Below are positions 11,898-28,980 of a DNA stretch of 64,000 nucleotides, piece by piece; the stretch's first letter is position 1, and every line of letters begins with the position of its first letter. Origin of the DNA: an uncultured Pirellulaceae bacterium (lineage in GTDB: Bacteria; Planctomycetota; Planctomycetia; Pirellulales; Pirellulaceae); NCBI GenBank assembly GCA_937981585.1, contig CALJOA010000064.1, positions 1 to 64,000 on the forward strand. Direction: 5' to 3'. Below the pieces are notes generated by a model that made no database searches, had not been told where the DNA came from, and saw only the letters and a list, made by a program, of their open reading frames with translations. The position numbers were made by a program, and so were the translations under genes.

Positions 11898-13766
11898 GTG
11901 AAGCGGACATTTCGGCAGACTCCGCCTCCTCATCGACCCTCTACTCCACACGGTGTTGCTTTGGTCAGGCGCTCTTTAATTCAGTTTCATCTCAATATTA
12001 GTACCAACAATTTGTGGGGGAGTCTCGGTTTGCGCTTTGCCGTTTTGATTCTTTTGATTTTCGCGTCTGAGATCTCGGAAAATCATTTGGCATGCGCACA
12101 GAACAGTCAACCGCCTCCACGCCCTACAACGCAAATTAGCTCGCGCCCAGCGTCTTCTGCAAAACGACTGGTTGGCCAACCTGCCAAGCCGCATGCGGCA
12201 ACGAAGGAATTGGCTTTGATTCGGGAAATCATCGAGCCCGAAATTTTGATGAACATCGAGCCGACCCAATCCAAAATTATTCGTACCAACTATCCGATCG
12301 TTCGATCTGCAATCAGTGATCCTGGAGTCGTGGACATTCAAACATTCGGCTCCAACGAATTTGAAATCATCGGCAAGGGGATCGGCGAAACGTCATTGAC
12401 GTTTTGGTATGAGCTTCCCAACGGTCAAATCGACTACCTGCGATATCTCGTAGAAGTCAACGACGAAGGCCAAAAGCAGAAGAGAAAAGAGCGGCGATAC
12501 TTGAAACTGCAATCTCGAATCAACGAGATGTTTCCCAACAGCCAGGTCTTCCTGGTCCCGATCGAAGACAAAGTGATCGTTCGCGGGCAGGCTCGTGATT
12601 CCAAAGAAGCTGCGGATATTATGCAGATGCTTGGACAGTTCGCGGGCGGTGGTCGAGGTGGTGCTGGCGGTGGAGGTGGTGGGCAATACCTGTACGGTGG
12701 CACGCGAAACGGTGGAAATCAATATTGGCTTAACGACATCCAATCGACTCGCGCAGACGGACGCGACAGGCAAAACGGAAATTTCGAAGACGATGACTAC
12801 GAGGACATAAACCCACAGGACTTCATCAATCTTCTCGAAGTACCTGGTGTTCAACAAGTGATGTTGAAAGTCAGGATCGCAGAACTAGTGCGCAACTCAA
12901 ACCGATCCGTTGGCGCCGACATTTCGACTTTGTTCGACTCGGGATCATTTAGTCACCTGCTCTCAGGAGGAGGCGGTAATGTTTCGGCGATACTCAGTGA
13001 CGGAGACGTGCAGTTCTTTCTGACTGCTGTGGGAACCCATGGATATGGCAAGATCCTTGCTGAGCCAACTTTGATTACGATCAGCGGTAAGTCTGCACGG
13101 TTTCAAGCAGGCGGCGAGTTTGCAGTTCCAACAACCGTTGGAGTCGGTGGCGTTGGCGGGATTGCGACGACGTTCCGTGGTTTTGGAACCGAGTTGGAAT
13201 TCACGCCTGTCGTGGTCGACAAAGACTTGATTCGGTTGCAGGTTTCGCCATCATTCAGCACGCTTAACAATGACGCTTCGGTTGCCGGGATACCCGGACT
13301 TAACCGCCGCTCGGTCGATACAACGGTCGACTTGCGAGAAGGCCAATGGCTCGCCGTGGCAGGTTTGATTCAAGACGAACAGGGCGGACAGAAAACGCGA
13401 ACGCCTTACATCGGCGATCTTCCATTCATCGGCGGCTTGTTTTCACATCGGGACACGTCGAGATTCGAAACCGAACTGATTGTCCTTGTCAGCCCAGAGT
13501 TAATCCACCCCATGGAGAGAGAACAGGTCCCGCTATTGTTACCGGGCATGGAAGTCACCGATCCCACCGATGACGATTTTTTCCTCCGACGCCAAACGGA
13601 AGGCTACCGCGGTTTCGATCATCGCAGCACATTGTGGACTGAGATGCAGTCGCACAATCGAGGAATCATCGAATCGCAATTCCTTGATGAGGTCACTTCA
13701 GGAACAAGACGTCAAATGCAAGTCCAGCGGTCCTACATTTCCGGACCATGCGGTTTTTCGGACTAA
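11898..13766 (+). CDS. cpaC: Type II/III-type secretin of a Tad pilus (RcpA/CpaC-like)
   Basis: BON/N1-like region and secretin core (VQQVMLKVRIAELVRNSNRSVGADI..., GGEFAVPTTVG, RLQVSPSFS, RSVDTTVDLREGQWLAVAGL, TELIVLVSPELIHPM). Confidence 0.88.
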   Translation: MKRTFRQTPPPHRPSTPHGVALVRRSLIQFHLNISTNNLWGSLGLRFAVLILLIFASEISENHLACAQNSQPPPRPTTQISSRPASSAKRLVGQPAKPHAATKELALIREIIEPEILMNIEPTQSKIIRTNYPIVRSAISDPGVVDIQTFGSNEFEIIGKGIGETSLTFWYELPNGQIDYLRYLVEVNDEGQKQKRKERRYLKLQSRINEMFPNSQVFLVPIEDKVIVRGQARDSKEAADIMQMLGQFAGGGRGGAGGGGGGQYLYGGTRNGGNQYWLNDIQSTRADGRDRQNGNFEDDDYEDINPQDFINLLEVPGVQQVMLKVRIAELVRNSNRSVGADISTLFDSGSFSHLLSGGGGNVSAILSDGDVQFFLTAVGTHGYGKILAEPTLITISGKSARFQAGGEFAVPTTVGVGGVGGIATTFRGFGTELEFTPVVVDKDLIRLQVSPSFSTLNNDASVAGIPGLNRRSVDTTVDLREGQWLAVAGLIQDEQGGQKTRTPYIGDLPFIGGLFSHRDTSRFETELIVLVSPELIHPMEREQVPLLLPGMEVTDPTDDDFFLRRQTEGYRGFDHRSTLWTEMQSHNRGIIESQFLDEVTSGTRRQMQVQRSYISGPCGFSD

Positions 13767-14553: not shown

Positions 14554-15630
14554 ATGAATACCCGAATTGCAAAACTAGCTTTAGCAACAATTGCCCTGGT
14601 GGCGTTTGTGTCGGGTTGCGCTTCGGTCTCACATCCACTTGCTGGCAGGAAGGCGCTTCCTGTTAAACCCGATTCAAACTCGCTTGAAATTCAGTTTGGG
14701 ATGGCCAGACTGCTTGAAAGAAACGGAAAGCTCGAAGACGCACGAAACGCCTACTTGAATATTCTTGCCAATGGTCCGCACACTCCATCGCTTCACCGAC
14801 TGGGCGTGACTGCCGTTCGGCAAAATCGTCTCGACGCTGGTTTGCAGCATATGTCCAAAGCAATCGCCGCCGGAGCTCCGACGGCTGAGCTTTTAGGAGA
14901 CTACGGGTACGCTCAGCTTTTGGCTGGCGAATTGGAAGAAGCAGAAACAACGCTTAAAAAAGCAGTCACACTTGACCCCAGCCAAAAAAGAAACGTCAAC
15001 AATTTGGCGATCGTAGTTGGAAAGCAGAATCGGCTCAACGAATCGTTTCAACTGTTTCGCCAAGCCAATCCTGAAGCCGAGGCGATTGCCAACCTAGCGT
15101 TCATCCAAGCCCAATCGGAAGACCTTTCAAGGGCGAGGTTGAACTACAACCGTGCTCTGGATCTCGACCCCCAGCTTAAAATCGCGGCCATCGGTCTGAT
15201 GGAAGTCCACAAGCACATCCAAACCGGCGAGGCGGACTTAAATCAATCGATAGAAACAGGCACCCAATCCGCCTTGCCCCAACAAAGAATCGCTCAGGCC
15301 CCACGGACAAAAGCCAAACGGGTTCAATTGGCCAATCGAATTACTGGGTCCAGCCACTACGAAAGTCATGACCGAGTTCTCGCCAAAATGAAACGTCCGA
15401 TCCAACTACCCGATCGAGATCCTGCCAAACCTAAACCGCAGACAGTAAATCAAAGCATGGCGTCCACCAATGGACGGCGTGGGATTTTCCAGCCTCGCCC
15501 ATTGAGCCCGCCTAACGCGATTCAAACCGTCGCGCAGGTTTCTTACCAAGAACCGATCCAAGAAGATTCGGTCTCAGAGATGCCAGTCAACAGCCAAGAG
15601 ATAATCAATCACCCGCCACCGGGCAGCTAA
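14554..15630 (+). CDS. tadD: TadD-like TPR lipoprotein
   Basis: Lipobox FVSGCASV; TPR repeats; Tad locus context. Confidence 0.75.
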   Translation: MNTRIAKLALATIALVAFVSGCASVSHPLAGRKALPVKPDSNSLEIQFGMARLLERNGKLEDARNAYLNILANGPHTPSLHRLGVTAVRQNRLDAGLQHMSKAIAAGAPTAELLGDYGYAQLLAGELEEAETTLKKAVTLDPSQKRNVNNLAIVVGKQNRLNESFQLFRQANPEAEAIANLAFIQAQSEDLSRARLNYNRALDLDPQLKIAAIGLMEVHKHIQTGEADLNQSIETGTQSALPQQRIAQAPRTKAKRVQLANRITGSSHYESHDRVLAKMKRPIQLPDRDPAKPKPQTVNQSMASTNGRRGIFQPRPLSPPNAIQTVAQVSYQEPIQEDSVSEMPVNSQEIINHPPPGS

Positions 15631-15702: not shown

Positions 15703-15978
15703 CTAGTCAACCAGGCCCTGTAAATCGGCGGCTTGGAAGCTTTGGACCTCGGCCTGAATCACTTCAGATTTAGGCGCTACAGGCGTTTCCATCTTGGTGG
15801 TCTGCTTGATCCGATCCCCCAGCTGTTGAAACTCGCTTTCGACGCTTGATCGGAAAGTGCTTAGTGCAGCCAAAAGTCCCGCCACAACCACGGAGGAAAT
15901 GAGCAGAAGTTCGGTCGTGATAATACCACCGTTACAATCGTTCCAGAGCAATTTTGGCATGTTGATTCCTTTGATCAA
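15703..15978 (-). CDS. Small Flp-pilin-like protein, divergent, on the opposite strand
   Basis: LWNDCNGGIITTELLLISSVVVAGLLAAL: prepilin-like signal with hydrophobic helix, aligns with the neighbouring pilins. Confidence 0.6.
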   Translation of the reverse strand: MIKGINMPKLLWNDCNGGIITTELLLISSVVVAGLLAALSTFRSSVESEFQQLGDRIKQTTKMETPVAPKSEVIQAEVQSFQAADLQGLVD

Positions 15979-16151
15979 GAAAAGTTTGAAAGTAGGAATT
16001 CATGGTGGTTGGAAACCAGTTTTTGTCAATCGGGAAAAAATTTACAGAATTTGAATTTATTCACATCATGCGGGTTAAGGAAACCTACTGTTGCGTAACA
16101 AGTGAACATTTTGTTCGTTACTCTTCAATCACGTTTCTTTTGGATTTCAAA

Positions 16152-16484
16152 ATGAAAAACCCTGCCCAAACACTTTGGAATGATGAAGCTGGTTTCATCG
16201 TTTCTATTGAGTTGATCTTGATCGCTACAATCGCCATTATCGGTTTGATTACCGGAATGACAGCCGTCCGTGACGCTGTTGTTTCTGAGTTGTCAGACGT
16301 TGCTGGTGCTGTTCAAGATCTTAACCAGTGCTACTCATTCAATGGCGTTGTTGGTCACTCTGCAAGCACATGTGGAAGTGATTTCATTGATGCTACTGAT
16401 CACTGCGATGACGCAGATGACATCGCTGGACAAGCCGACAACTGCATTACTTTTGACGGTGCTCCAGAGCAAGAAGGCAGCTAA
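16152..16484 (+). CDS. Flp-type pilin-like protein (paralog 1)
   Basis: LWNDEAGFIVSIELILIATIAIIGLITG + YSFNGVVGHS + NCITFDGAPEQE; ATG 16152 preferred over ORF start 16002. Confidence 0.75.
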   Translation: MKNPAQTLWNDEAGFIVSIELILIATIAIIGLITGMTAVRDAVVSELSDVAGAVQDLNQCYSFNGVVGHSASTCGSDFIDATDHCDDADDIAGQADNCITFDGAPEQEGS

Positions 16485-16516
16485 GCTGACTTTGGTATAG
16501 TTGGAATTCAACTGGA

Positions 16517-16549
16517 AAAGGCTGGCCTCATTTGAGGTCAGCCTTTTTT
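16517..16549 (+). terminator. Rho-independent terminator after pilin paralog 1
   Basis: AAAAGGCTGGCCTCA-TTT-GAGGTCAGCCTTTTTT hairpin with T-run. Confidence 0.85.
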
Positions 16550-16883
16550 GCGCGCGTTTTCAGAGGCAAAAAGCCCTGATAGATGTGACCTCGTAGCCTC
16601 CGTGGGTTGATCAAAGGGGAGGCATTTCGGAGTTTGCGAGGTGAGACTTGAGAAGAAATTCTGAGTCGGTTTCAATCCAGCCAGTTATTACATTCTCTTT
16701 CCAAACTGGACCAAAAGGGTACTCATCTGCGAAATTTTCACTAGAGCCAAAAACGGCGCGTTATGGTTTCGAGCTTTTCTAATGGGGCCTTCAGTTGTCC
16801 CATCATGTAACTCACACTTGCGACTACGGATTCTTCGCAACAGTGCAACGGATGCACTGGCAATAAATTAAGGATATAAAATC

Positions 16884-17210
16884 ATGGAAGTCATCAAGTC
16901 AATTTGGATCGACGAAGCCGGATTCATTGTCTCAATCGAGTTGATTCTCATCGCAACCATCATGGTCATTGGGTTGATCACTGGATTTACCGCCGTTCGT
17001 GACGCGGTCGTCGCGGAACTGTCGGATGTCGGAGGCGCAATTCAAGACCTGAACCAGTCTTACTCTTTCAACGGAGTAACAGGGCACTCCGGGTTTACTC
17101 AGGGAAGTAGCTACCTCGACGCACGCGATTTTTGTGATGTTGCTGAGGATCCTATCAACCAAGCAGACAACTGCATTGTCTTCACGCGGCGCCCAGCGAA
17201 CGAACGCTAG
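16884..17210 (+). CDS. Flp-type pilin-like protein (paralog 2)
   Basis: DEAGFIVSIELILIATIMVIGLITGF; SYSFNGVTGHSGFTQGSSYLDARDFCD; NCIVFTRRPANER. Confidence 0.75.
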   Translation: MEVIKSIWIDEAGFIVSIELILIATIMVIGLITGFTAVRDAVVAELSDVGGAIQDLNQSYSFNGVTGHSGFTQGSSYLDARDFCDVAEDPINQADNCIVFTRRPANER

Positions 17211-17337
17211 TCACGTGGAGCAATGGGCCGTTTATCACAAGAGACTTATCAATTGATAGCCTTACCAGACCACTTCTCTTGGGCTGGACAATTTTTTCAC
17301 TTTTAAGCCCCCAAACTCTGCATACAAGGATATAGCC

Positions 17338-17664
17338 ATGCAAGTATCAGTTTTACTTTGGCAGGACGATTCGGGATTCATCGTTTCAATCGAGCTTATT
17401 TTGATAGCGACGATCATGGTTATCGGCTTGATTACCGGCTTCACTGCCGTGCGAGATGCAGTGGTTAGTGAGTTGTCTGACGTCGGTGGAGCCATCCAGG
17501 ATCTGACTCAGTCATACTCGTTCAACGGAGTAACCGGTCACTCGGGGTTCACCCAAGGCAGTAGCTACCTCGACGCACGGGATTTTTGTGACGCTTTCGA
17601 GGACCCAATCAGCCAAGCCGACAATTGCATCCTGTTCAATCGGGCTCCAGCGAACGAGCGATAG
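17338..17664 (+). CDS. Flp-type pilin-like protein (paralog 3)
   Basis: Near-identical protein to paralog 2, with shared upstream AAGGATATA. Confidence 0.75.
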   Translation: MQVSVLLWQDDSGFIVSIELILIATIMVIGLITGFTAVRDAVVSELSDVGGAIQDLTQSYSFNGVTGHSGFTQGSSYLDARDFCDAFEDPISQADNCILFNRAPANER

Positions 17665-17687: not shown

Positions 17688-17771
17688 GGGTTAGCCGTTT
17701 TGGCATTTTGGCGATAGCCACGGTTGAGTCCCGAACCGTGGCTATCGCCAAAACGGCTGATTTTTTAACCC
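17688..17771. repeat. Long palindromic element (AGCCGTTTTGGC...AACCGTGGCTATCGCCAAAACGGCT), terminator-like
   Basis: Perfect complementarity of CCGTGGCTATCGCCAAAA arms with a short loop; left arm contains an internal TTTTGGCA/TTTTGGCG duplication; followed by a T-run. Confidence 0.9.
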
Positions 17772-18093: not shown

Positions 18094-20034
18094 ATGTCAG
18101 CAACTGCGCAAGAAGGCACCGCCGACAAAAGCGGGCATCAACTACAAGCTATTCTGCCGGACTGGTGCGCGCTGAGTTGGCAACACGCGCTGATTTGCTT
18201 CACTTTTTTGATTCTGTTTTTGCATTTGAGCTATCTACCGGTACCCACCGGCCAGATCTGGCATGAAGTCGCCAACGGTCGAACAATTGTTAGCAGTGGA
18301 ACCACCGCGGCGGATCCAGCTCTACCCTACTCCGAAGGCATTCGAAAACTGCAGACTAGTTGGCTGGGCCAGTCGCTCGTCTATCGAATCTACAGTTTCG
18401 GCGGCGCCGAGTGGCTCAGCTGCGCCTTTGCGCTGCTTCAGATGTTCACCCTCGCGATCTGGGCATTTGTCTTTCAAAGAATCTCCGGTAGAAGATGGAC
18501 GGCGCTGCTTGTCGCGCCAATCGTCCTGGCGAGTTCAATCGATGTCAACTCATTGGGAGCATCAACATTCGGGCTCCTAATGTTCGCGTTGATCGCTCTA
18601 ACGATGGTCGGGACTGTTTCAAGACGAGATCAGCCGGCGGCGGCCGACATGGTTTGGTCGTCAGCTTCGACTTGGAGGTGGATTGTAGTCATTGGACTTT
18701 TCATTCTCTGGGCCAACTTTGACGTCAGCGTGTTGATAGGAGTCGGTTTGTTGGCAATGCTAACGGCGTCTCGCTTGGTCGGCGTCTTGAGCAAGCGAGA
18801 TAATCACGAATCTGTTTTAGCGGACAAAGAACTGCACCACCGAACGTGGCTATTCGAACTTTGTCTGGTCGCCACGCTGATACAGCCAGCCGGTTTGGGG
18901 CTATGGAAAGCCGTGTTCTGGTCCGCCAATAATCCCATCGTCCACGCGCTTGGAGGTTGGTCGCCGGTCGCGATCGCGAGTTGGCGCGGGGCCTGGATCG
19001 CGATCGCTTGGCTCGGATGGATTGTTGCGTCTCGAAAGACTCACAGGATTCCGTATTGGAACACCGCCTGTGCGATTTTTGTAACCGTGGTCGTAGCGTG
19101 TTTTCAAAGCCAGATCATTTGGTTCGCCACTACGATGTGTCTTCTTTCGGTGTCGCTGTTGCCCCAACTCGCTAACCCCCGATTTGGCAATCGAAGGCCT
19201 GCTCAGAGTAAGGAACCTCAGAGCAACTCTAACTCTTCGTTAAAGTTTGCGTTTACGTTGGTTTGTGGTTTGCTGATTTGGATGGCTTTCACCCTTTCAC
19301 CGATCGGCAGCATGGCGATGGCAGGAAAGTCACGCACCACAGCCCAGGTTTTTGGGAGCAAGACGCCTTTGGGCGCAACTGCGTATCTGAAGGGAAACCG
19401 CCCAGCGAAAGTCGTTTGGACTCCGAAGTACTGGGCCGACCATCTACAAGTCGAAGGGGAGCCGACCAAGGTCTTGGCCAATCTCAACGACGCGGCGCTG
19501 ACTCCGAGAATCGAGAAAGACTACCAGTCAATCTATTACGGCGGAAAAAACTGGCAGCGACTCTTGCGGCGATATCAGATTGACGATCTCGTCGTGGACA
19601 AGGAAAACCAGACCGACCTGATGCGTGAACTGCGAGTCGACGCCGGGCCATTCAAGAAGGTGTTCGAAGATGAAATTTCGGTCGTCTATCGCCGCACCAA
19701 AGTTGTCTCCAATCTGGACAAGCCAACTGAAACGGCAAAAACGAAATCCAAGCTGAACTCGAACCCGGAAAAACCGGTAGCCGGCGGCGTCAGATTTCGG
19801 CTTTCCAAAGTCGGATCGGCCAAATTCGACACCGAGGATACCGATTGGATCAGAGACGAAGACCAACCCGTCGTTCAACAAAACGTTGACCAAAACGCTG
19901 GGGAACAATCGAATTTGAACGCCACTTTAACCACCAGCTCGAAAGCCCAATGGGCTCCCGCCAAACCCAAACCCGCTGCCGCCAAACTGTTCGGCGACCG
20001 ACCGACCAGCTCAACATCAGTTTTTGAGGACTGA
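18094..20034 (+). CDS. Polytopic membrane protein, GT-C glycosyltransferase-like N-terminal region
   Basis: WHEVANGRTIVSSGTTAADPALPYSEG...SWLGQSLVYRIYSFGG resembles the GT-C pattern (W.HL..GR.I...G..P..D......W..Q.LLY..Y..GG); many TM segments. Confidence 0.5.
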   Translation: MSATAQEGTADKSGHQLQAILPDWCALSWQHALICFTFLILFLHLSYLPVPTGQIWHEVANGRTIVSSGTTAADPALPYSEGIRKLQTSWLGQSLVYRIYSFGGAEWLSCAFALLQMFTLAIWAFVFQRISGRRWTALLVAPIVLASSIDVNSLGASTFGLLMFALIALTMVGTVSRRDQPAAADMVWSSASTWRWIVVIGLFILWANFDVSVLIGVGLLAMLTASRLVGVLSKRDNHESVLADKELHHRTWLFELCLVATLIQPAGLGLWKAVFWSANNPIVHALGGWSPVAIASWRGAWIAIAWLGWIVASRKTHRIPYWNTACAIFVTVVVACFQSQIIWFATTMCLLSVSLLPQLANPRFGNRRPAQSKEPQSNSNSSLKFAFTLVCGLLIWMAFTLSPIGSMAMAGKSRTTAQVFGSKTPLGATAYLKGNRPAKVVWTPKYWADHLQVEGEPTKVLANLNDAALTPRIEKDYQSIYYGGKNWQRLLRRYQIDDLVVDKENQTDLMRELRVDAGPFKKVFEDEISVVYRRTKVVSNLDKPTETAKTKSKLNSNPEKPVAGGVRFRLSKVGSAKFDTEDTDWIRDEDQPVVQQNVDQNAGEQSNLNATLTTSSKAQWAPAKPKPAAAKLFGDRPTSSTSVFED

Positions 20035-21333
20035 GTGATGAATCAAAACAGTGGCCAACAAAACCAGCTGGAACCAAACCGAGGAAAGAATCGGAATCGA
20101 TCGGGCAGAATATTCTTGCTCTCTCAGTTGGTTTTTCTTCCGGTGATCATTGGTGTGCTGAGCCTTAGCGCCGCCACGGTCAACAATCGACCTTTGATGC
20201 CAGTGCTGCATGAGAACCCCAGAACGGTTCGGCCTCAGCACGATTACGATTTTGTCATTACCGATCGCCAACTGAACGAAGTCCTGTATAAACTGCGGCC
20301 CAACTTCTCTCCCGACAAACCACCAAAGACGAATTACGTCGATCACGCGCTTCGATTTTGGGGGACCAAGATCGAATTTGACGATCAGTCGCTTGACGGT
20401 GTCCAACTCAGGGAACTTCTGGTAGACCACAAAGCATTTGCCGCAGCCTGGGGCGAAAACGAAACTCCGCTTTTGTCGGTAACGCCAAATGGAATCGCAG
20501 TTCGAACTCAGCAAGGTCGTTCAACGGTCAGCCACGTCGATCACCTGCTGGGAAGCTTGGCCGAAGTCGGAACGCCGCTCAGCTACAAGATCTCCGCTGC
20601 CAACGTCGAGGGTAGGTTGATCGACATGGTCCGGGACGGCGTGATGAATTTTAGCTTGAACCAGCGCGAGTACGAATGGACAACGTTGGCGTTGGCGTTT
20701 TACGCGGCCGACAATTCACCGTGGTATTCCCCCGAAGGCCAGGAGATCAGCTACGACTATCTGGCCAAGCGAATCATGCGCGAGACTCAGCCAGACGGCG
20801 TTTGCTACGGTCAACACCGGCTTTACACGCTGACGATTCTGCTTCGCATCGACGATCAAATGCGAACACAGGAAAAAGCAAGAAGCCCAAACGGCCCCGC
20901 TGGCTTAATTTCACCAGAAATGCGCAGCAGCATCATGAGCTATCTCGGTGATATGACCAGTCGAGCCTACCAGAGCCAGTCCGCTGAGGGATCGTGGGAT
21001 GGCAACTGGCCTGATGCGACGATCCCGGTGCGGGATCCTGACACCGATCAACTCAGCCGAAAAGTGCTGGCAACTGGCCATATGCTTGAGTGGTGGGCCA
21101 TGGCGCCACGTGAGCTTCACCCTCCACGTGAAACGATTGTGCGGGCGGCGCAATGGTTATCGCGCGTCATCATCGAGATGGAACCTGAGCGAATTGAACG
21201 CAACTATACATTCTTGACCCATGCAGGCAGGGCTTTGGCGCTTTGGCGCGGCGGATTCGCTGACGAGCTTTATCGAACGAAAATGATATCTGGCGAAAAT
21301 GATCAGCTACTGCCGTTTGAAGGGAGCAAATAG
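20035..21333 (+). CDS. Membrane-anchored protein, putative alpha/alpha-toroid (prenyltransferase/terpenoid-cyclase-like) fold
   Basis: N-terminal TM; CYGQHRLYTLTILLR, GSWDGNWPD, LATGHMLEWWAMAPRELHPP...AAQWL repeats resemble toroid helices. Confidence 0.4.
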   Translation: MMNQNSGQQNQLEPNRGKNRNRSGRIFLLSQLVFLPVIIGVLSLSAATVNNRPLMPVLHENPRTVRPQHDYDFVITDRQLNEVLYKLRPNFSPDKPPKTNYVDHALRFWGTKIEFDDQSLDGVQLRELLVDHKAFAAAWGENETPLLSVTPNGIAVRTQQGRSTVSHVDHLLGSLAEVGTPLSYKISAANVEGRLIDMVRDGVMNFSLNQREYEWTTLALAFYAADNSPWYSPEGQEISYDYLAKRIMRETQPDGVCYGQHRLYTLTILLRIDDQMRTQEKARSPNGPAGLISPEMRSSIMSYLGDMTSRAYQSQSAEGSWDGNWPDATIPVRDPDTDQLSRKVLATGHMLEWWAMAPRELHPPRETIVRAAQWLSRVIIEMEPERIERNYTFLTHAGRALALWRGGFADELYRTKMISGENDQLLPFEGSK

Positions 21334-21506: not shown

Positions 21507-22046
21507 ATGGGTTTACTCGACCAAGCCTTGTTGCCGTTTGTCGGAATTGCAATTCTGATGACCATCGCCGTCGTCATCGACGTCAGGACTCGGCGCATCC
21601 CCAACTGGTTGACAGTTTCGGCTTTCACCGGCGGCGTGCTTTACCACACGGTCACCAGTGGATGGGAAGGACTTGGTTACGCGATGGGCGGATTCGCTGT
21701 CGGTTTTGGCATCCTGTTGGTGCTGTGGCTGGTCGGCGGTGGCGGTGGCGGTGATGTAAAGCTCATGGGGGCAGTGGGCGCCTGGGTGGGGCCGCTTTGT
21801 ACGTTGCTTATATTTCTTGGCAGCGCCGTATTTGCGGTCTTCTGCGTGATCGTTCTGGTTACCAGGAACAAACTCAAAGGCAGACGCAACGAGGACTTCA
21901 AGCCAACTCCGGCGACAGTGCCCGATGTTCCAACCAATAGCAGAACGGCGATCAAGCAGTACATCCCCTACGCGGTACCGGTTGCGATGGCGTCGTGGAT
22001 GGTATTTCTGTTTCAGTTACTCAAGGCAACCACAAACAACCAGTAG
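21507..22046 (+). CDS. tadV: Prepilin peptidase (TadV/CpaA family)
   Basis: VIDVRTRRIPNWLT and GGGGDVKLMGAVGAWVG (GxGD-type aspartyl protease motifs). Confidence 0.88.
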   Translation: MGLLDQALLPFVGIAILMTIAVVIDVRTRRIPNWLTVSAFTGGVLYHTVTSGWEGLGYAMGGFAVGFGILLVLWLVGGGGGGDVKLMGAVGAWVGPLCTLLIFLGSAVFAVFCVIVLVTRNKLKGRRNEDFKPTPATVPDVPTNSRTAIKQYIPYAVPVAMASWMVFLFQLLKATTNNQ

Positions 22047-22215: not shown

Positions 22216-23721
22216 ATGTCACGCATTGATTCAGGGACGATATTAGTTGCGTTTTTCGCCATTCTATTTGGGTTGGTCGGAGCTTTTCTGCTTCGAAAAA
22301 CTCTGCAAAAAAAGCCAGTCGCGCAGGCGCCGCCGGAGGTTCGCCGTGGGCCTGCGAAGATCACGGTTCCGCTAGCCAGTCGAAACTTACCGTCGGGAAC
22401 TCGAATCACGCTCGACGATGTCGCGCTGTTCAGCTTGACTCGGGAGGAAATGAAAGAGCATGGTATCAAACGCGTTTTCATGTCCAATCCCGATCAGATT
22501 ATCGGAAAAACGGTCGCCGTCGATTTGCAGCGCGGATCGACGTTCGACACCAAAGACTTTTATCCCCCCGGAACCGGCCCCGGGATTGCTGATAAGCTCC
22601 AGCCCGGTCAACGCGCAGTGACGATCGATGTGACTGCGACCAGTGCGTTGTTAGGGTTCGCTGGCGCCGGACAAAATGTCGATGTGTTGTTTCACTACGG
22701 TCTCAATTCCCGAAGTGCGAACGGGCATACTGGTGATCAGGATTTAAACGATCGCTATCAAAACAACTCAGACTACTGGGAACCTGAACACTTTCAATAC
22801 AACTCGCCCAGAGGCTTGAACGCTCAACAAGGTAGTGGTCGACGCCACCGACACTATGATGACGACCGCCGTGCTGGCATTTCAGCAGCCAAGTACCACA
22901 ACGCAACGGTCACACTTGTTCAAAAGGCAACCATCCTCGCGCTTGGTCAGCGGGTCAATCAGACGGGCCACTCCAGTCAGCTTGGTTTCGACGAGCGTGT
23001 TCGGGTGACACTGGCGGTAAAGCCCGAATCGGCTGAGCTGATTCGAGTTGCTGAGGGTCACGGGGAATTGTCGCTGACACTGCGGGGATCTGACGATGAA
23101 GAGATCATCAAAATCGACGAGCCGGCCACGCTGAGCAACATCATCGTTGTGGAAGAGGAGCCAGTTCAGATCGCGCGGCGGGAAGTTCGCGACATGGATA
23201 TTTACCGAGGCCAAAACCGATCAAGTGTTCGATTTTTGCGTGATCGGGATACGGGAAAAGACGACTTCCAAAAATGGATTCTTCTCAAAGAGAATCCGCA
23301 GAGCGATCAGCAAGAGCCTAAGCAGCAACAGGGCGACGAAGTTAAACTCGATCTCGATCCCCAGCGTTTATCGGGACCGAACATAGAGCCCAACAAAAGA
23401 CCCAACCTGGGGCCTAACTTTGAGCAAAATTTTGGACCCAATACCGAGCGCAATCGAGGCTATCGAAATCTTGAAACGGCTGACGGATTCCTGATCGACC
23501 CGCGCGAAAAGTCAGAGCTTGAGCGGCTCAGATCAGATTTCAGAAAGATCAAAACTCTCTTCAACCAGGAACCCGAATTGCGAGATCGTCTCGAGGATTC
23601 AGGACCAATCAATATCGATGCACCCCAACCCATTGATTTGGACGAGGTTTCGTCCAAGGCAACTGAAGACGAACTGCGGTCGGCGACAGCTGTTGAACTT
23701 TACGATCCGAGGTGGGAATGA
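22216..23721 (+). CDS. cpaB: RcpC/CpaB Flp pilus assembly protein with Asn/Pro-rich C-terminal extension
   Basis: SAF-like region VPLASRNLPSGTRITLDDVAL; KLQPGQRAVTIDVTATSALLGFAGAGQNVDVL; locus context. Confidence 0.85.
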   Translation: MSRIDSGTILVAFFAILFGLVGAFLLRKTLQKKPVAQAPPEVRRGPAKITVPLASRNLPSGTRITLDDVALFSLTREEMKEHGIKRVFMSNPDQIIGKTVAVDLQRGSTFDTKDFYPPGTGPGIADKLQPGQRAVTIDVTATSALLGFAGAGQNVDVLFHYGLNSRSANGHTGDQDLNDRYQNNSDYWEPEHFQYNSPRGLNAQQGSGRRHRHYDDDRRAGISAAKYHNATVTLVQKATILALGQRVNQTGHSSQLGFDERVRVTLAVKPESAELIRVAEGHGELSLTLRGSDDEEIIKIDEPATLSNIIVVEEEPVQIARREVRDMDIYRGQNRSSVRFLRDRDTGKDDFQKWILLKENPQSDQQEPKQQQGDEVKLDLDPQRLSGPNIEPNKRPNLGPNFEQNFGPNTERNRGYRNLETADGFLIDPREKSELERLRSDFRKIKTLFNQEPELRDRLEDSGPINIDAPQPIDLDEVSSKATEDELRSATAVELYDPRWE

Positions 23722-25127
23722 TCGATGACTCAACCACGATTGCCCCGGCACCGATCTACTCGGTGAAAAATACGCATGAAAAACCGCAGGGCAGTTCGTT
23801 TGCAAATTCAACGTCGAACCAAGAAATTCAGTTTCAGGTTCTCAAACAGGCGATCCATCAAGAGCTTGTCGGTTCGCTTGACTTGGCTTCTGCAGAAGGT
23901 CTAACTCCACAGCAGTTTCAGGAACAGCTCAAACCCTACGTCAGTCGCAGCATCAACGACTGCCGCGGCGAACTGGCAGACGGGCAACGCGAGCGACTGG
24001 AAACCGAACTCTATGAAGAGATGTTCGGAATCGGACCGCTGGAGAAACTGATGGCCGATCCGTCGGTCAACGATATTCTTGTAAATCATCCGCACGAAGT
24101 GTTCATCGAACGCGATGGACAATTGGAACTGACTGATGTTGTTTTCGCTGATACCACGCATTTGCTGCGTATCATTCAGAGAATCGCTTCGTCGGTCGGG
24201 AGGAGAATCGACGAAGTCAGTCCAATGGTAGACGCCCGTCTGCCAGACGGATCACGTGTCAACGCAGTGATTCCGCCGCTGGCGCTGGACGGCCCAAAAC
24301 TTTCGATTCGCCGTTTTGCCAAAGTACATTTGACCCTGGACCGCTTGGTTGAAAACTCAACCATGACTCGTCCGATCGCCGACTTTCTCAAAGCCGCAGT
24401 TGAGGCGCGGATTAGCGTTTTGATCTCAGGTGGAACTGGTGCAGGAAAGACGACGTTGCTCAACGCACTTTCATCCTGCATTCCCGATGACGAGCGAGTT
24501 ATCACGATCGAGGACTCTGCTGAATTGATTCTGCAGCATCGGCATGTCGCACGACTGGAGACCCGGCCTGCCAATAGCGAAGGTGCAGGCGAGTTTACCC
24601 AGCGTGACCTTGTTCGCAACAGCCTGAGAATGAGACCCGACCGGATCATCGTTGGTGAGGTACGTGGTGTTGAAGCGTTCGACATGCTGCAAGCGATGAA
24701 CACCGGTCATGAAGGTTCACTAACGACGATTCACGCCAACGATGCCAACGACGCCCTGATGCGACTGGAGATGATGGTCGCAATGGCTGGGCTTGAATTA
24801 CCCCACGAAGTCGTCCGGTCCTACATCGGATCGGGAATCGGAATCGTCGTTCAGATCTCTCGTCTCAAAGGCGGTTTGCGACGGGTCATGCGAGTTGCCG
24901 AACTTAATCCGTTTCAGGAAAACGGTCGACCATCGTATCAGCTCAACGACGTGTTCACATTCAAGCGGGATGGTATTGATGCAGATGGGAATGTCCGCGG
25001 AGCTTTTGAGACTTCCTTTGACGCACCTCGCGCCATAAGCCGTTTCAATGAACTGGGCATCGATTACGATGCGTCGACCTTTACGAAACTCCGTCAGAAG
25101 TTCAATCGGAACAAAGGAAAATCGTGA
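23718..25127 (+). CDS. tadA: Tad secretion ATPase (TadA/CpaF)
   Basis: Walker A SGGTGAGKTTLLNAL; RMRPDRIIVGEVRG; GHEGSLTTIHAND. ATG 23718 overlaps the RcpC stop (ATGA). Confidence 0.95.
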   Translation: MIDDSTTIAPAPIYSVKNTHEKPQGSSFANSTSNQEIQFQVLKQAIHQELVGSLDLASAEGLTPQQFQEQLKPYVSRSINDCRGELADGQRERLETELYEEMFGIGPLEKLMADPSVNDILVNHPHEVFIERDGQLELTDVVFADTTHLLRIIQRIASSVGRRIDEVSPMVDARLPDGSRVNAVIPPLALDGPKLSIRRFAKVHLTLDRLVENSTMTRPIADFLKAAVEARISVLISGGTGAGKTTLLNALSSCIPDDERVITIEDSAELILQHRHVARLETRPANSEGAGEFTQRDLVRNSLRMRPDRIIVGEVRGVEAFDMLQAMNTGHEGSLTTIHANDANDALMRLEMMVAMAGLELPHEVVRSYIGSGIGIVVQISRLKGGLRRVMRVAELNPFQENGRPSYQLNDVFTFKRDGIDADGNVRGAFETSFDAPRAISRFNELGIDYDASTFTKLRQKFNRNKGKS

Positions 25128-26038
25128 GCGCGCTCGAGTTTTCAGTTTTTGCTTCGCTGGCCGGATTCTTCATGTTGTCCGCCGTATTTGTTCGTCGTTT
25201 GATGACGCCCAGCGGTCCAGCGGAAATTGCGCTTAGGCGACTTCCTCAACGAGTGATCACGCCACCCTCCGACACCGACTCGATCGCTGTTCGTTTCGAT
25301 CGCTGGATGCATTCTACGTTGATAGGATCGGGAGTCGGAATGTCGATTGGAACAATCGTCTTGCTTTCAATCCTTGCGGCAGTCCTGACCGCGACGGCAA
25401 CATTTCTCTACGGGGCTTCGTTGCCGGTGCAGTTGTTGTTGTCGCTGGGTGTATTGTTTGTGGTTCCATTCGTATTAACTCTGATCCGGCGAAGAAGGAT
25501 CAAAGAGTTTTCAGATCAGCTTCCTCCGACGCTGGACCTTGTCGCTCGAGCGGTTCGCGCGGGAGAGAGTTTTGAAAGCGCTATCGAGATCGCAGCCAAA
25601 GCAGCCAAAGACCCGGTTAAGAACGAATTAAATCAATGCGTGCGTCAGTTTGAGCTGGGAACGCCCGTCGCGTCCGTTATGGCTGCGTTCGCCCAACGAA
25701 TTCCAACGATGGAAGTTCGCATTTTTGCTCACACCGTTACGGTCCATCGTGAGCTTGGTGGGCGACTGGCCGAAGGTTTGGAGCGATTGGCGACCGTAAT
25801 TCGTGACCGTCGCGAATACATTCAAAAAGTAAACTCAATGACGAGTCTGGGGCGGTTTGCAATCGGGGCGATCAGCCTGATGGGAGTGTTTGTTCTTGCT
25901 TATCTGACGATCTTCCATCCAGAGTATTTGCGGAAACTGCTTTCGTCGGAGCTGGGGCTCAAGATGGTGGCCTACGGTGTGATCTCCGAGATCGTCGGGC
26001 TTTGCTGGGTCGCGATGACGTTAAAGATGGAGTACTAA
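25124..26038 (+). CDS. tadB: Tad inner-membrane protein TadB (type II secretion F family)
   Basis: DQLPPTLDLVARAVRAGESFESAIEIAA; TM pattern; GTGA overlap with tadA stop. Confidence 0.88.
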   Translation: MSALEFSVFASLAGFFMLSAVFVRRLMTPSGPAEIALRRLPQRVITPPSDTDSIAVRFDRWMHSTLIGSGVGMSIGTIVLLSILAAVLTATATFLYGASLPVQLLLSLGVLFVVPFVLTLIRRRRIKEFSDQLPPTLDLVARAVRAGESFESAIEIAAKAAKDPVKNELNQCVRQFELGTPVASVMAAFAQRIPTMEVRIFAHTVTVHRELGGRLAEGLERLATVIRDRREYIQKVNSMTSLGRFAIGAISLMGVFVLAYLTIFHPEYLRKLLSSELGLKMVAYGVISEIVGLCWVAMTLKMEY

Positions 26039-26041
26039 GCC

Positions 26042-27037
26042 ATGCAGTTACTCCCTTACCTTTTGATTTTCACCAGTATCGCAATGGTTGTCTTTCTGCT
26101 GGGGCAGCGATTACGAAAACCGAAAACCCAGACCAACCAATTTGATTTTCTTCGGCCCGATGCGTTTGGACCGTTGACCAAACCTCTTTCCAATGTATTT
26201 CCCGTTAGCGAAAAGAAGCAAACCATCTTGCGGATTGAATTGCTCGGAGCCGGCCAGTTTCATACAAACGCGCTTTCCAACTACCTCGCCCGGCGAAACG
26301 TTTGTGTCATGATTGTGATCTTGGGTGCGGCGTTGCTGTTCATAAGCGAAGAAATCGCTCCTGCTTACAAAATTTACATTCTTATTGGTGGACTAGTTGC
26401 AACGATTTTCGCCTACGGACTGCCTCGATTGATTCTCAGCTCGATTGCGTCAAGACGTCGGCGCGGAATTGAAAATGCATTTCCCGATGCACTGGACATG
26501 ATTGCGATGTCGGTCGAAGGCGGTTTGCCGATCCAGGACGCGGTTCGACGAGTTTCAGATGAATTTAAACTGACACACCGGGCGTTGTCGAAAGAGTTGT
26601 TGATCATCTCACGCCAAACCGATACCGGTTCGGTTCAACAGGCGATGTCGTCGTTTGCCGAACGAATCGACATGCCCGAGATCGGAGCTTGGGCTGCGCT
26701 GATGTCGCAAAGCCAACGGTTGGGCGGAAAGGTGGCTGGGTCATTGTTGCAATGCGCCGATCGAATGCGACACAATCGGAAAACACGGGCCGAGCAGGCT
26801 GGCAATACCGCTTCGATCAAGCTCCTGTTGCCGACTGTTTTGTGTCTTGCCCCGCCCGTTTTTATTCTTCTGATCGGTCCGGCAGCACTCGATTTTCGAG
26901 ACTTCATGAATCGGGAGCGAGACGAAAGCACACAGTTGGTCGAGCAGGCCAACGCGATCACGGGTCCCAATGGTCGACCGGTTCCGCGAGCAATGGACCG
27001 TTTGATGCCTGCTCGAACCGACACGAATATCAATTGA
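26042..27037 (+). CDS. tadC: Tad inner-membrane protein TadC (type II secretion F family)
   Basis: NAFPDALDMIAMSVEGGLPIQDAVRRV; LGGKVAGSLLQCADRMRHNRKTRAEQAG; C-terminal TM. Confidence 0.88.
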   Translation: MQLLPYLLIFTSIAMVVFLLGQRLRKPKTQTNQFDFLRPDAFGPLTKPLSNVFPVSEKKQTILRIELLGAGQFHTNALSNYLARRNVCVMIVILGAALLFISEEIAPAYKIYILIGGLVATIFAYGLPRLILSSIASRRRRGIENAFPDALDMIAMSVEGGLPIQDAVRRVSDEFKLTHRALSKELLIISRQTDTGSVQQAMSSFAERIDMPEIGAWAALMSQSQRLGGKVAGSLLQCADRMRHNRKTRAEQAGNTASIKLLLPTVLCLAPPVFILLIGPAALDFRDFMNRERDESTQLVEQANAITGPNGRPVPRAMDRLMPARTDTNIN

Positions 27038-27095
27038 TTTGTTTGGGCGTCCGAACTGCATGGAACTAAGAGGCTGCGATTACCTGCTCGTCAGC

Positions 27096-28106
27096 TTATT
27101 GAGCCGGTGCGGCCAGTTCAGCATCGGTTAAGACTCGATTGAAGATGCTTACATCATCAATCGTACCGGTAAAGAAGTTGTCATCACTGCTACTGCCAGT
27201 GTGAAGATTGGTTCTGCCGTTAGTGCCACCGATACCAATACCTCCACCGTGTTGCCAAAGTTGCGATCCAGGAGCCGAACCAAACAATGCTCCGTTGAGG
27301 TATCCACTAAGCGCATCCGGCTGAACCGTCGCGTCGCCATCCAAGACCAGCGAAACGGTGTTGTCGACGCCTGCAGAAATTGGAACGGAGATAAACTCGG
27401 GATCCCAGCCAGATTCACCATCGGGAATGTTCCAGCCGCCAATGTAAAGCATCCCGTCGTCGATGTAGATGACAAGCCCGCGTACTGTCGCGCCTTCTTC
27501 GTAGAGAACCTGCGTTGACGTCACATCGTCTGCATTGAATGTCAGCGTGATCGTACGCTCTTCGTGAATTCCAAGATTAATATCGTCAGAATTTGGTAGA
27601 TAGATCGCGTCGTCTCCATCAAACTCGACGACGCCATCGGTGAAGTTGGGATCACCAACGGCCACACCGCTGTTATCGGAACCAAAGGGCGATGTGTCGC
27701 TCGCGTCACCACCATCAAAGCTCAGACTCGTAACCAGTTCGTCTGGGGCAATCACAGTCGCTATTTCGTTAGTTGGCGGTCCATCAAACACAATGCAGTT
27801 ATCGGCGACACCTGGAGCATCGTCGGAATTGTCGCAGTGGTCGAGCGAGTCACCGTATGACATTCCGGCGACATGAGAGCTGTGTCCACGTAGACCATTG
27901 ACGGAATAGCATCCCTGCAAGTCCTGAACCGCTCCACCGACATCCGAAAGCTCACTAATGACTGCATCGCGTAATGCGGTCGAACTTGTAGCCAGCCCAA
28001 TCAAGACGACAGTTGCAACCAGAATCAGCTCAGTAGAAAGAGCCGTTCCGTAAGTGTCGCCTTGGAGACGCTTCAAGAAGCGAGATGTGAACTCAGAAAA
28101 CCGCAT
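27096..28106 (-). CDS. Large pilin-like protein: Flp-like N-terminal helix + pilin-family domain + LamG/concanavalin-like domain
   Basis: GTALSTELILVATVVLIGLATS; GCYSVNGLRGHS...HCDNSDDAPGVADNCIVFDGPPTNE as in neighbouring pilins; LamG-like HEERTITLTFNADD...VLYEEGATVRGLVIYIDDGMLYIGGWN...GTIDDVSIFNRVLTDAEL. Confidence 0.75.
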   Translation of the reverse strand: MRFSEFTSRFLKRLQGDTYGTALSTELILVATVVLIGLATSSTALRDAVISELSDVGGAVQDLQGCYSVNGLRGHSSHVAGMSYGDSLDHCDNSDDAPGVADNCIVFDGPPTNEIATVIAPDELVTSLSFDGGDASDTSPFGSDNSGVAVGDPNFTDGVVEFDGDDAIYLPNSDDINLGIHEERTITLTFNADDVTSTQVLYEEGATVRGLVIYIDDGMLYIGGWNIPDGESGWDPEFISVPISAGVDNTVSLVLDGDATVQPDALSGYLNGALFGSAPGSQLWQHGGGIGIGGTNGRTNLHTGSSSDDNFFTGTIDDVSIFNRVLTDAELAAPAQ

Positions 28107-28429
28107 GTGTCACTGTCTGAAAAACACTAAAGGGATGTTCGAAATTCTAGGTTGCAGTTAAAGCGAACAAGCTTTTTTCTCAGCGTTTAAGAGTCTGGTT
28201 ATCAGGAAGTTACGGGTTGTCTCAGGCATTTCGAGGTACTTCAAATGGGCTTCCTGAGTTGACGCTTTGAACCTAGCGATTACTGACAGGGTGAGTGATT
28301 CACAACTGCCTGTTCAACTTATGCAAATCGTAGAAGCGCATATTTTTTGAATGTCAAATCACTTGCCGACCAAATTCCGATAAATAGAGAGTTGGAAGAT
28401 AGTTTCACAGAATAAGTGGAGTTGGCGGA

Positions 28430-28720
28430 ATGGATTCCCAAAATCGCTCTTTGTTGATGGCTTTTAAACGTTTCTGGTGCAACGACGAAGGCTTCGTAAT
28501 TACGATCGAATTGATTTTGATCGCAACGATTGTTGGTATCGGGTCAATCGTTGGGCTGACCACGCTGCGTGACGCGATCAACAGTGAAATGGCAGATATA
28601 GCCGACGCGATCCAGAACATGGATGGAGGCAACGGGAATGGGAATGGCAATGGTAACGGCAATAGTAACGCCAACAGTTGCATCACTTTTTCAACTCCGC
28701 CGGCCGATGAGGCGCAATAG
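28430..28720 (+). CDS. Flp-type pilin-like protein with (Gly-Asn)n linker
   Basis: NDEGFVITIELILIATIVGIGSIVG; GGNGNGNGNGNGNSNANS; C-terminal SCITFSTPPADE as in other paralogs. Confidence 0.7.
   Translation: MDSQNRSLLMAFKRFWCNDEGFVITIELILIATIVGIGSIVGLTTLRDAINSEMADIADAIQNMDGGNGNGNGNGNGNSNANSCITFSTPPADEAQ
28628..28675 (+). repeat. In-gene hexanucleotide repeat (GGNAAY)n encoding (Gly-Asn)n
   Basis: GGCAACGGGAATGGGAATGGCAATGGTAACGGCAAT... Confidence 0.85.
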
Positions 28721-28980
28721 ATTCTACGCGACGTGAATCGGGACGCGTGAGCATCTAAACAAAGCGACAACTCATGCTGCTGGTTGGTTTGAACCAAAAT
28801 TGGAAACCAAAATCAAAAAGTGGTGCCAAGCTTACGTCTATTGAAACTGCTTCAATTGAGACAGCAGGCTGGAATCGACGTTCGTCTATTCTTATGGAAG
28901 CGTTATACTTTTGAGAGCGAATCCACCAGATTTTTCGCGGTGATTTCTTTGGTGCGAGTATCTGCCATCACGGCTAGAAA

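Follow-up and report, generated by a model that had tools for sequence, protein, structure and literature searches.

We asked what a pilin joined to a lectin-like module may do in the tight adherence (Tad) pilus locus of an uncultured Pirellulaceae bacterium. The locus lies in a stretch of 64,000 nucleotides, hereafter the window (assembly GCA_937981585.1, contig CALJOA010000064.1, positions 1 to 64,000 of the forward strand). The gene in question occupies positions 27096-28106, where an initial annotation had described a 336-aa open reading frame (ORF) directly after tadC on the opposite strand and had proposed a pilus-tip adhesin. We found the ORF as described, on the minus strand with an ATG start and convergent with tadC at a distance of 58 bp. 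Its product joins an N-terminal pilin domain to a C-terminal laminin G (LamG)/concanavalin A (ConA)-like module. We consider it probable that this protein is an accessory modular pilin that shows its lectin-like module on the Tad pilus, at or near the tip, and binds glycan. The gene and its two parts are:

27096-28106, minus strand: modular pilin gene, pilin domain plus LamG module (ATG start, 336 aa)
27756-28106, minus strand: pilin domain, aa 1-117 (from alignment A1, identity to the window pilins and the helices of the model)
27099-27755, minus strand: LamG/ConA-like module, aa 118-336, with the Pfam match at 163-332 (from PF13385 and the fold model)

A pilin domain joined to a LamG module

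The product begins with a basic leader, MRFSEFTSRFLKRLQGDTYG, followed by the hydrophobic stretch TALSTELILVATVVLIGLATS, and the hydrophobic helix starts at residue 21. This is the class III signal pattern of a short basic leader ending in Gly and then ~20 hydrophobic residues. The ectodomain of the pilin domain carries the motif GHS...DNCIVF. As the initial annotation had claimed, the pilin region resembles that of its neighbours: the domain is 52-58% identical to the window ORFs 16152-16484, 16884-17210 and 17338-17664 (E 2e-33 to 4e-29), with a weaker match to a fourth window pilin at 28430. Alignment A1 of the pilin domain (21 rows) has 9 invariant columns including Gly20, present in 21/21 rows, and Glu26. 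The strings that the annotation had quoted (GHSS, NCIVF, GVVEFDGDDAIYLPN, RGLVIYIDDGMLYIGGWN and GTIDDVSIFNRVLTDAEL) all occur in the 336-aa product.

The Glu of the modular pilin stands at +6 after the Gly and not at +5, the position that is frequent, though not universal, in type IV prepilins. An automatic count over 84 distinct pilin domains, taken from loci mostly picked for long frames and therefore a set enriched by choice, places Gly at Glu-6 in 69 and at Glu-5 in 9 (one has both), with 7 unassigned. In the pilins of the locus (16152-17664, 27756-28106 and 28430-28720) the step from the conserved Gly to the conserved Glu is six residues, as in GFIVSIEL, not five. Either the peptidase cleaves Glu+6 pilins one residue later or the subunits pack in a different register.

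The annotation had called the N-terminal helix Flp-like. That description is supported by the N-terminus of prepilin type, by the small pilins paralogous to it and by the surrounding tad locus, while the Flp_Fap model does not agree: PF04964 gave no match at E<=1 to the modular pilin or to four of the five window pilin ORFs (all but 17338). The TadE/TadG-like models PF07811 and PF13400 likewise gave no match to the modular pilin at E<=1. Neither family searches with the pilin domain (Pfam, NCBIfam) nor a profile search against solved structures yielded a meaningful match, and phmmer of the 336-aa protein against the PDB returned a single chance match (E 0.7).

The C-terminal module matches Laminin_G_3 (PF13385) over aa 163-332 with 37.8 bits against the Pfam cut-off of 27.6 (E 2.6e-9), and this match together with a predicted jelly roll confirms the LamG-like C-terminus of the annotation. 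The AlphaFold2 model was built from a 20-row alignment consisting of three full-length fusions, the remainder pilins. It contains helices at residues 2-16 and 18-65, a poorly modelled stretch at 75-145 with a predicted local distance difference test score (pLDDT) below 50, and then a beta-rich domain. With Foldseek the model matches CBM40 (sialidase lectin modules), pentraxin and laminin-G structures, with E from 1.5e-6. VIA-align of model residues 120-325 against solved jelly rolls gives Z ~14 with a root-mean-square deviation (rmsd) of ~3.2 over ~170 residues, so that the LamG fold on which the annotation depended is indeed predicted, from a weak model. The matched jelly rolls include an extracellular arabinanase and clostridial binding domains. 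The top VIA rows, jelly-roll parts of clostridial neurotoxin binding domains and of their partner protein, were read as common fold only. In the model, aa 120-325 would thus form a ConA/LamG jelly roll; this supports the LamG fold only and shows no ligand.

A pilin moiety fused to a domain that is not pilus-specific makes the protein a modular pilin, a class defined in PMC8179133, where PF13385 is among the extra domains of the frequent IPR012902 modular pilins.

The fusion is conserved beside tadC

The modular pilin gene is convergent with tadC, since tadC (26042-27037, plus strand) stops 58 bp from its 3' end. On its 5' side 323 bp of intergenic sequence separate it from a divergently transcribed small pilin gene at 28430. 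GC and GC3 (GC at third codon positions) are similar across the two halves of the gene (0.521/0.504 vs 0.523/0.518) and therefore give no compositional hint that the LamG part arrived recently. A scan of 26900-28800 found 0 sigma-70-like promoter sites and one terminator-like site, within the modular pilin gene, the mean for shuffles being 1.9 in both cases, which we regard as uninformative.

The full-length fusion is present in 3/241 same-family genomes, all of one genus: the source genome, G131 (53% identity) and G132 (49%). PF13385 is above the cut-off in the G132 orthologue and slightly below it in that of G131 (25.7 bits, cut-off 27.6). As the frame and both domains are kept at ~50% identity in these two other genomes, we take the ORF to be a real gene. 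The fusion gene converges on tadC in 3/3 genomes, with gaps of 58 bp in the window, 64 bp in G131 and 8 bp in G132. A search for the same fusion beside other planctomycete tad loci, suggested with the annotation as a check, thus found it in G131 and G132 in conserved synteny by tadC.

Other modules on the same pilin

A profile of the pilin domain finds this pilin type in 48/241 genomes of the family, 53/246 of the order sample and 32/392 of the phylum sample, the samples overlapping. At least 17 of the 84 pilin domains are followed by 90 or more residues; this and the other counts of long pilin forms are lower bounds. LamG accounts for at least 3 of the long pilins. A pilin of G132 carries a CBM60 module (PF16841, E 7e-13). 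A beta-rich module without a name, 54-61% identical among its copies, is found on pilins of G131, G132 and G133, and the tad loci of G131 and G133 carry this pilin at their RcpA end. Three distinct modular pilins occur in G132, of which two are encoded on contigs separate from the one with its tad locus. Elsewhere, a long pilin of G109 carries a weak CBM_4_9-like module (E 0.11, below the cut-off) and one of G069 a Gly/Asn-rich repeat. Among cultured relatives, Planctomycetes bacterium K23_9 (CP036526.1) has a long pilin of this type with a weak CBM4_9-like module.

The modules extend beyond the family. In family f13 of the same order, six genomes (L070-L075) have pilins of 399-459 aa in which a Pro-rich and mostly also His-rich linker is followed by leucine-rich repeats (LRR). 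The 3/3 pilins run in Pfam are above the LRR cut-off, and the other three were assigned by eye. In G268 the LRR pilin gene directly follows tadA-tadB-tadC and two small pilin genes and is encoded on the other strand, much like the arrangement in the window. Taken together, the LamG, CBM60, beta-rich and LRR modules that the relatives carry on one pilin type suggest that the modules are interchangeable.

The beta-rich module measures ~210 aa (TGVGGSATGTIGDG...) in the three pilins of the genus (L039:3807-4835, L036:4023-4982 and L040:9626-10621) and has no Pfam or NCBIfam match. Its fold was modelled poorly (pLDDT 54), with weak Foldseek hits to beta-sandwich xylanases and carbohydrate-binding modules at rmsd mostly >8, and the model was not used. 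A pilin at L044:1737-2573 ends in a Gly/Asn/His-rich repeat tail of ~175 aa, which is present in shortened form (GNGNGNGNGNGN) in the window pilin at 28430-28720. At L086:7851-8669, a genome from a different family of the class encodes a pilin of 272 aa whose tail is rich in Cys, Gly and Pro. Several long frames outside the order were set aside as having their extra length only upstream of the pilin.

Origin of the fusion

The three LamG domains found on pilins form one group (93/96) in a tree of 11 LamG domains and adjoin domains of large multidomain proteins. The window LamG shares 52% identity with the LamG of a G149 protein of 2089 aa and 50% with that of its orthologue in G131. The G149 protein has a cadherin-like domain too, and a G109 relative with LamG (1355 aa) combines a dockerin domain with a Calx-beta match that stays under the cut-off. 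The pilin LamG is thus of the same subfamily as the LamG of these large planctomycete proteins, with up to 52% identity. It differs from them in that theirs is embedded among cadherin-like, Calx-beta-like or dockerin domains.

These relationships fit a single grafting of a surface-protein LamG onto a pilin, after which the fusion would have been inherited vertically along with the locus and lost at least once. A tree built from 43 pilin domains leaves most forks unsettled, the domains being too short for testing the grafting account. Approximately unbiased (AU) tests on this tree gave p 0.094 for the three LamG pilins, 0.208 for the LamG and beta-rich-module pilins together, 0.202 for the long pilins of the family and 0.258 for the beta-rich-module pilins, values that agree with a single lineage exchanging modules as well as with repeated grafting. 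The tree leaves out the G131 beta-rich-module pilin (domain <70 residues) and four rows that were fragments or outliers; the GN-rich long pilin of G069 is in the tree and in none of the AU-tested sets.

The tad locus

CpaA, CpaB, RcpA, TadA, TadB and TadC are all present by Pfam and NCBIfam, which identifies a Tad locus. The source genome is 80% complete and the tad locus itself is contiguous. Around the modular pilin gene it comprises:

11898-13766, plus strand: rcpA, secretin (PF00263, E 2.9e-36)
14554-15630, plus strand: TPR protein, probable tadD (TPR_2, E 5.1e-15; tadD named from context)
15703-15978, minus strand: divergent short pilin-like ORF (GGIITTELLL; hidden Markov model, E 4e-8)
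16152-16484, plus strand: small pilin 1, putative main pilin (by paralogy; an upstream start at 16002 is possible)
16884-17210, plus strand: small pilin 2 (by paralogy)
17338-17664, plus strand: small pilin 3, tandem copy of small pilin 2 (76% nucleotide identity over 300 nt)
18094-20034 and 20035-21333, plus strand: two ORFs without a name, 646 aa and 432 aa, associated with tad loci of this type
21507-22046, plus strand: cpaA/tadV, prepilin peptidase (PF01478, E 9.8e-21)
22216-23721, plus strand: cpaB/rcpC (PF16976, E 3.6e-15; TIGR03177, 132 bits)
23712-25127, plus strand: tadA, ATPase (PF00437, E 6.4e-63)
25124-26038, plus strand: tadB, T2SSF domain (PF00482, E 1.4e-15)
26042-27037, plus strand: tadC, T2SSF domain (PF00482, E 5.9e-15)
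28430-28720, plus strand: small pilin of another subtype, divergent from the modular pilin gene

Small pilin 3 is followed by a possible terminator, a perfect inverted repeat (17706-17753) whose 20-bp arms are spaced by 8 bp. The two ORFs at 18094-20034 and 20035-21333 have no family match in Pfam. Homologues of both occur in the tad loci of G131, G132, G133, G109, G216, G028 and Rhodopirellula baltica BR-MGV and were not seen in the tad locus of G124. They recur in nearly all such loci and are possibly unrecognised parts of the machine.

No match to PF07811 or PF13400 lies near the locus in 6/6 genomes searched, though all six have them elsewhere; no TadF-specific model was used. Genome-wide searches with the same two models gave no match on contig C64. 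The source genome has two further tad loci, on contigs C3 and C116, both with TadE/TadG-type genes. Contigs C27 and C136 hold TadE/TadG-type sets (L095:5964-8271 and L096:7022-8924), and the 15-16 kb read around them contain no tad machinery. By analogy with Myxococcus these may be dispersed tip sets.

One could generalise from the locus to a Pirellulales subtype of Tad system that has lost the TadE/F/G tip from the locus and in which Glu+6 pilins of the main type, with swappable modules (LamG, CBM60, beta-rich, LRR), set the grip of each species through the exchange of a single gene next to the locus. We offer this as a tentative and rather doubtful proposal.

How the modular pilin may work

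We propose the following sequence of events. The leader and hydrophobic helix would place the modular prepilin in the inner membrane, and the CpaA-type peptidase of the locus would trim it. TadA, TadB and TadC would build it into the pilus alongside the small pilins that have the same pilin domain, and it would exit through the RcpA secretin. The LamG jelly roll would be exposed on the outside of the pilus, in all likelihood at the tip or close to it, and may bind polysaccharide or glycoprotein carried by particles, algae or adjacent cells. By retracting, the pilus would draw the cell in. An adhesin role for the modular pilin is plausible on these grounds.

The same subunit could instead be sparse along the shaft, giving a lectin-studded filament and not a tip subunit. 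Its pilin domain matches the main small pilins in type and still has the invariant G20 and E26, the poorly modelled aa 75-145 after the helix could be a flexible linker, and PMC8179133 allows a position in the pilus body given such a linker. We nevertheless hold the shaft position to be unlikely, as a bulky module of ~220 residues would fit the tip more easily and a separate convergent gene suggests separate expression. That own transcription unit on the opposite strand would also suit a protein with no part in the pilus, a membrane-anchored or released lectin that borrows a prepilin-type N-terminus, and no tad genes were seen in the stretches read around the CBM60 and beta-rich-module pilins of G132 and the long pilin of G109. 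Such a lectin seems to us quite improbable in view of the whole pilin domain, not just the leader, kept at 52-58% identity to the locus pilins, and of the position by tadC conserved in three genomes. It is also conceivable that the LamG at the tip acts as a surface sensor, not as glue, and reports contact or tension as has been proposed for the vWA of Caulobacter CpaL, a vWA-fused Tad minor pilin whose loss stimulates surface sensing (PMC12607857). Modules of the LamG and CBM60 kinds typically bind ligands, however, and we saw no pointer to signalling; we give a sensor very little credence.

Several observations weigh against a glycan-binding tip pilin itself. The AlphaFold2 model is weak overall (mean pLDDT 59, predicted template modelling score 0.45), and the Pfam and NCBIfam pilin models (Flp_Fap, TadE) do not match the pilin family. 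LamG folds also bind proteins or steroids, so glycan binding by the module is not assured. The tip could instead come from the TadE/TadG-type sets that the genome has elsewhere. Glu26 is retained in the modular pilin, which suits a shaft position equally well and argues against a capping role, since the capping subunit of tip complexes lacks the conserved Glu (PMC10191384).

The distribution of the fusion adds to these points. Only 3 of the 48 family genomes having the pilin type carry the LamG fusion. It is missing from the closest relative, G133 (TadA 81-84% and TadC 80% identical to those of the window), where just 241 bp lead from tadC to its copy of the 28430 pilin. It follows that the pilus does not need the fusion. 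Since the more distant G131 and G132 keep it, its absence from G133 is more simply explained by loss. The stretches read of the tad loci of Rhodopirellula baltica BR-MGV, G216 and G028 contain no modular pilin, which speaks against its being essential. As such a fusion is missing from most tad loci of this type, we regard the modular pilin as accessory.

Relation to known systems and significance

The glycan-binding tip pilin that we favour has partial parallels elsewhere. In PilC of Streptococcus sanguinis, also a modular pilin, a ConA-like lectin module is responsible for glycan binding (PMC9934059). Like such PilC-type modular type IV pilins, the window protein has a short pilin moiety and a C-terminal ConA/LamG-type module. 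Unlike them (motif IPR012902), it stands in a Tad locus, its pilin domain is not recognised by Pfam and its Glu is at +6 after the Gly. With CpaL of Caulobacter crescentus (PMC12607857) it shares a link to a Tad system, a C-terminal domain of binding type and a tip location that is only proposed; it differs in having LamG in place of vWA and no TadE/TadG-type gene near the locus. The Kil Tip complexes of Myxococcus (KilL/M/N) and TadEFG tips (PMC12075869) also put interchangeable pilin-borne domains on one Tad-like pilus. Those tips are trimers of dedicated minor pilins, whereas the window type consists of single modular copies of the small-pilin type.

In open-access literature we found no description of LamG, CBM or LRR modules on Tad pilins or of planctomycete modular pilins, with the caveat that PMC8179133 mentions planctomycetes once. 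Modular pilins are known from type IVa pili and from one vWA-bearing Tad pilin; what is new here is that interchangeable binding modules sit on a Tad pilin belonging to the main-subunit type.

How planctomycetes that are sessile or live attached to particles choose and hold surfaces is poorly known. If the grip of the pilus can be read from the module of one pilin gene, this would provide a direct link from genome to attachment target, including polysaccharides that the cells possibly eat. It would extend the idea of modular pilins from type IVa pili to Tad pilins of the main type, and it would question the need for TadE/F/G in every Tad system.
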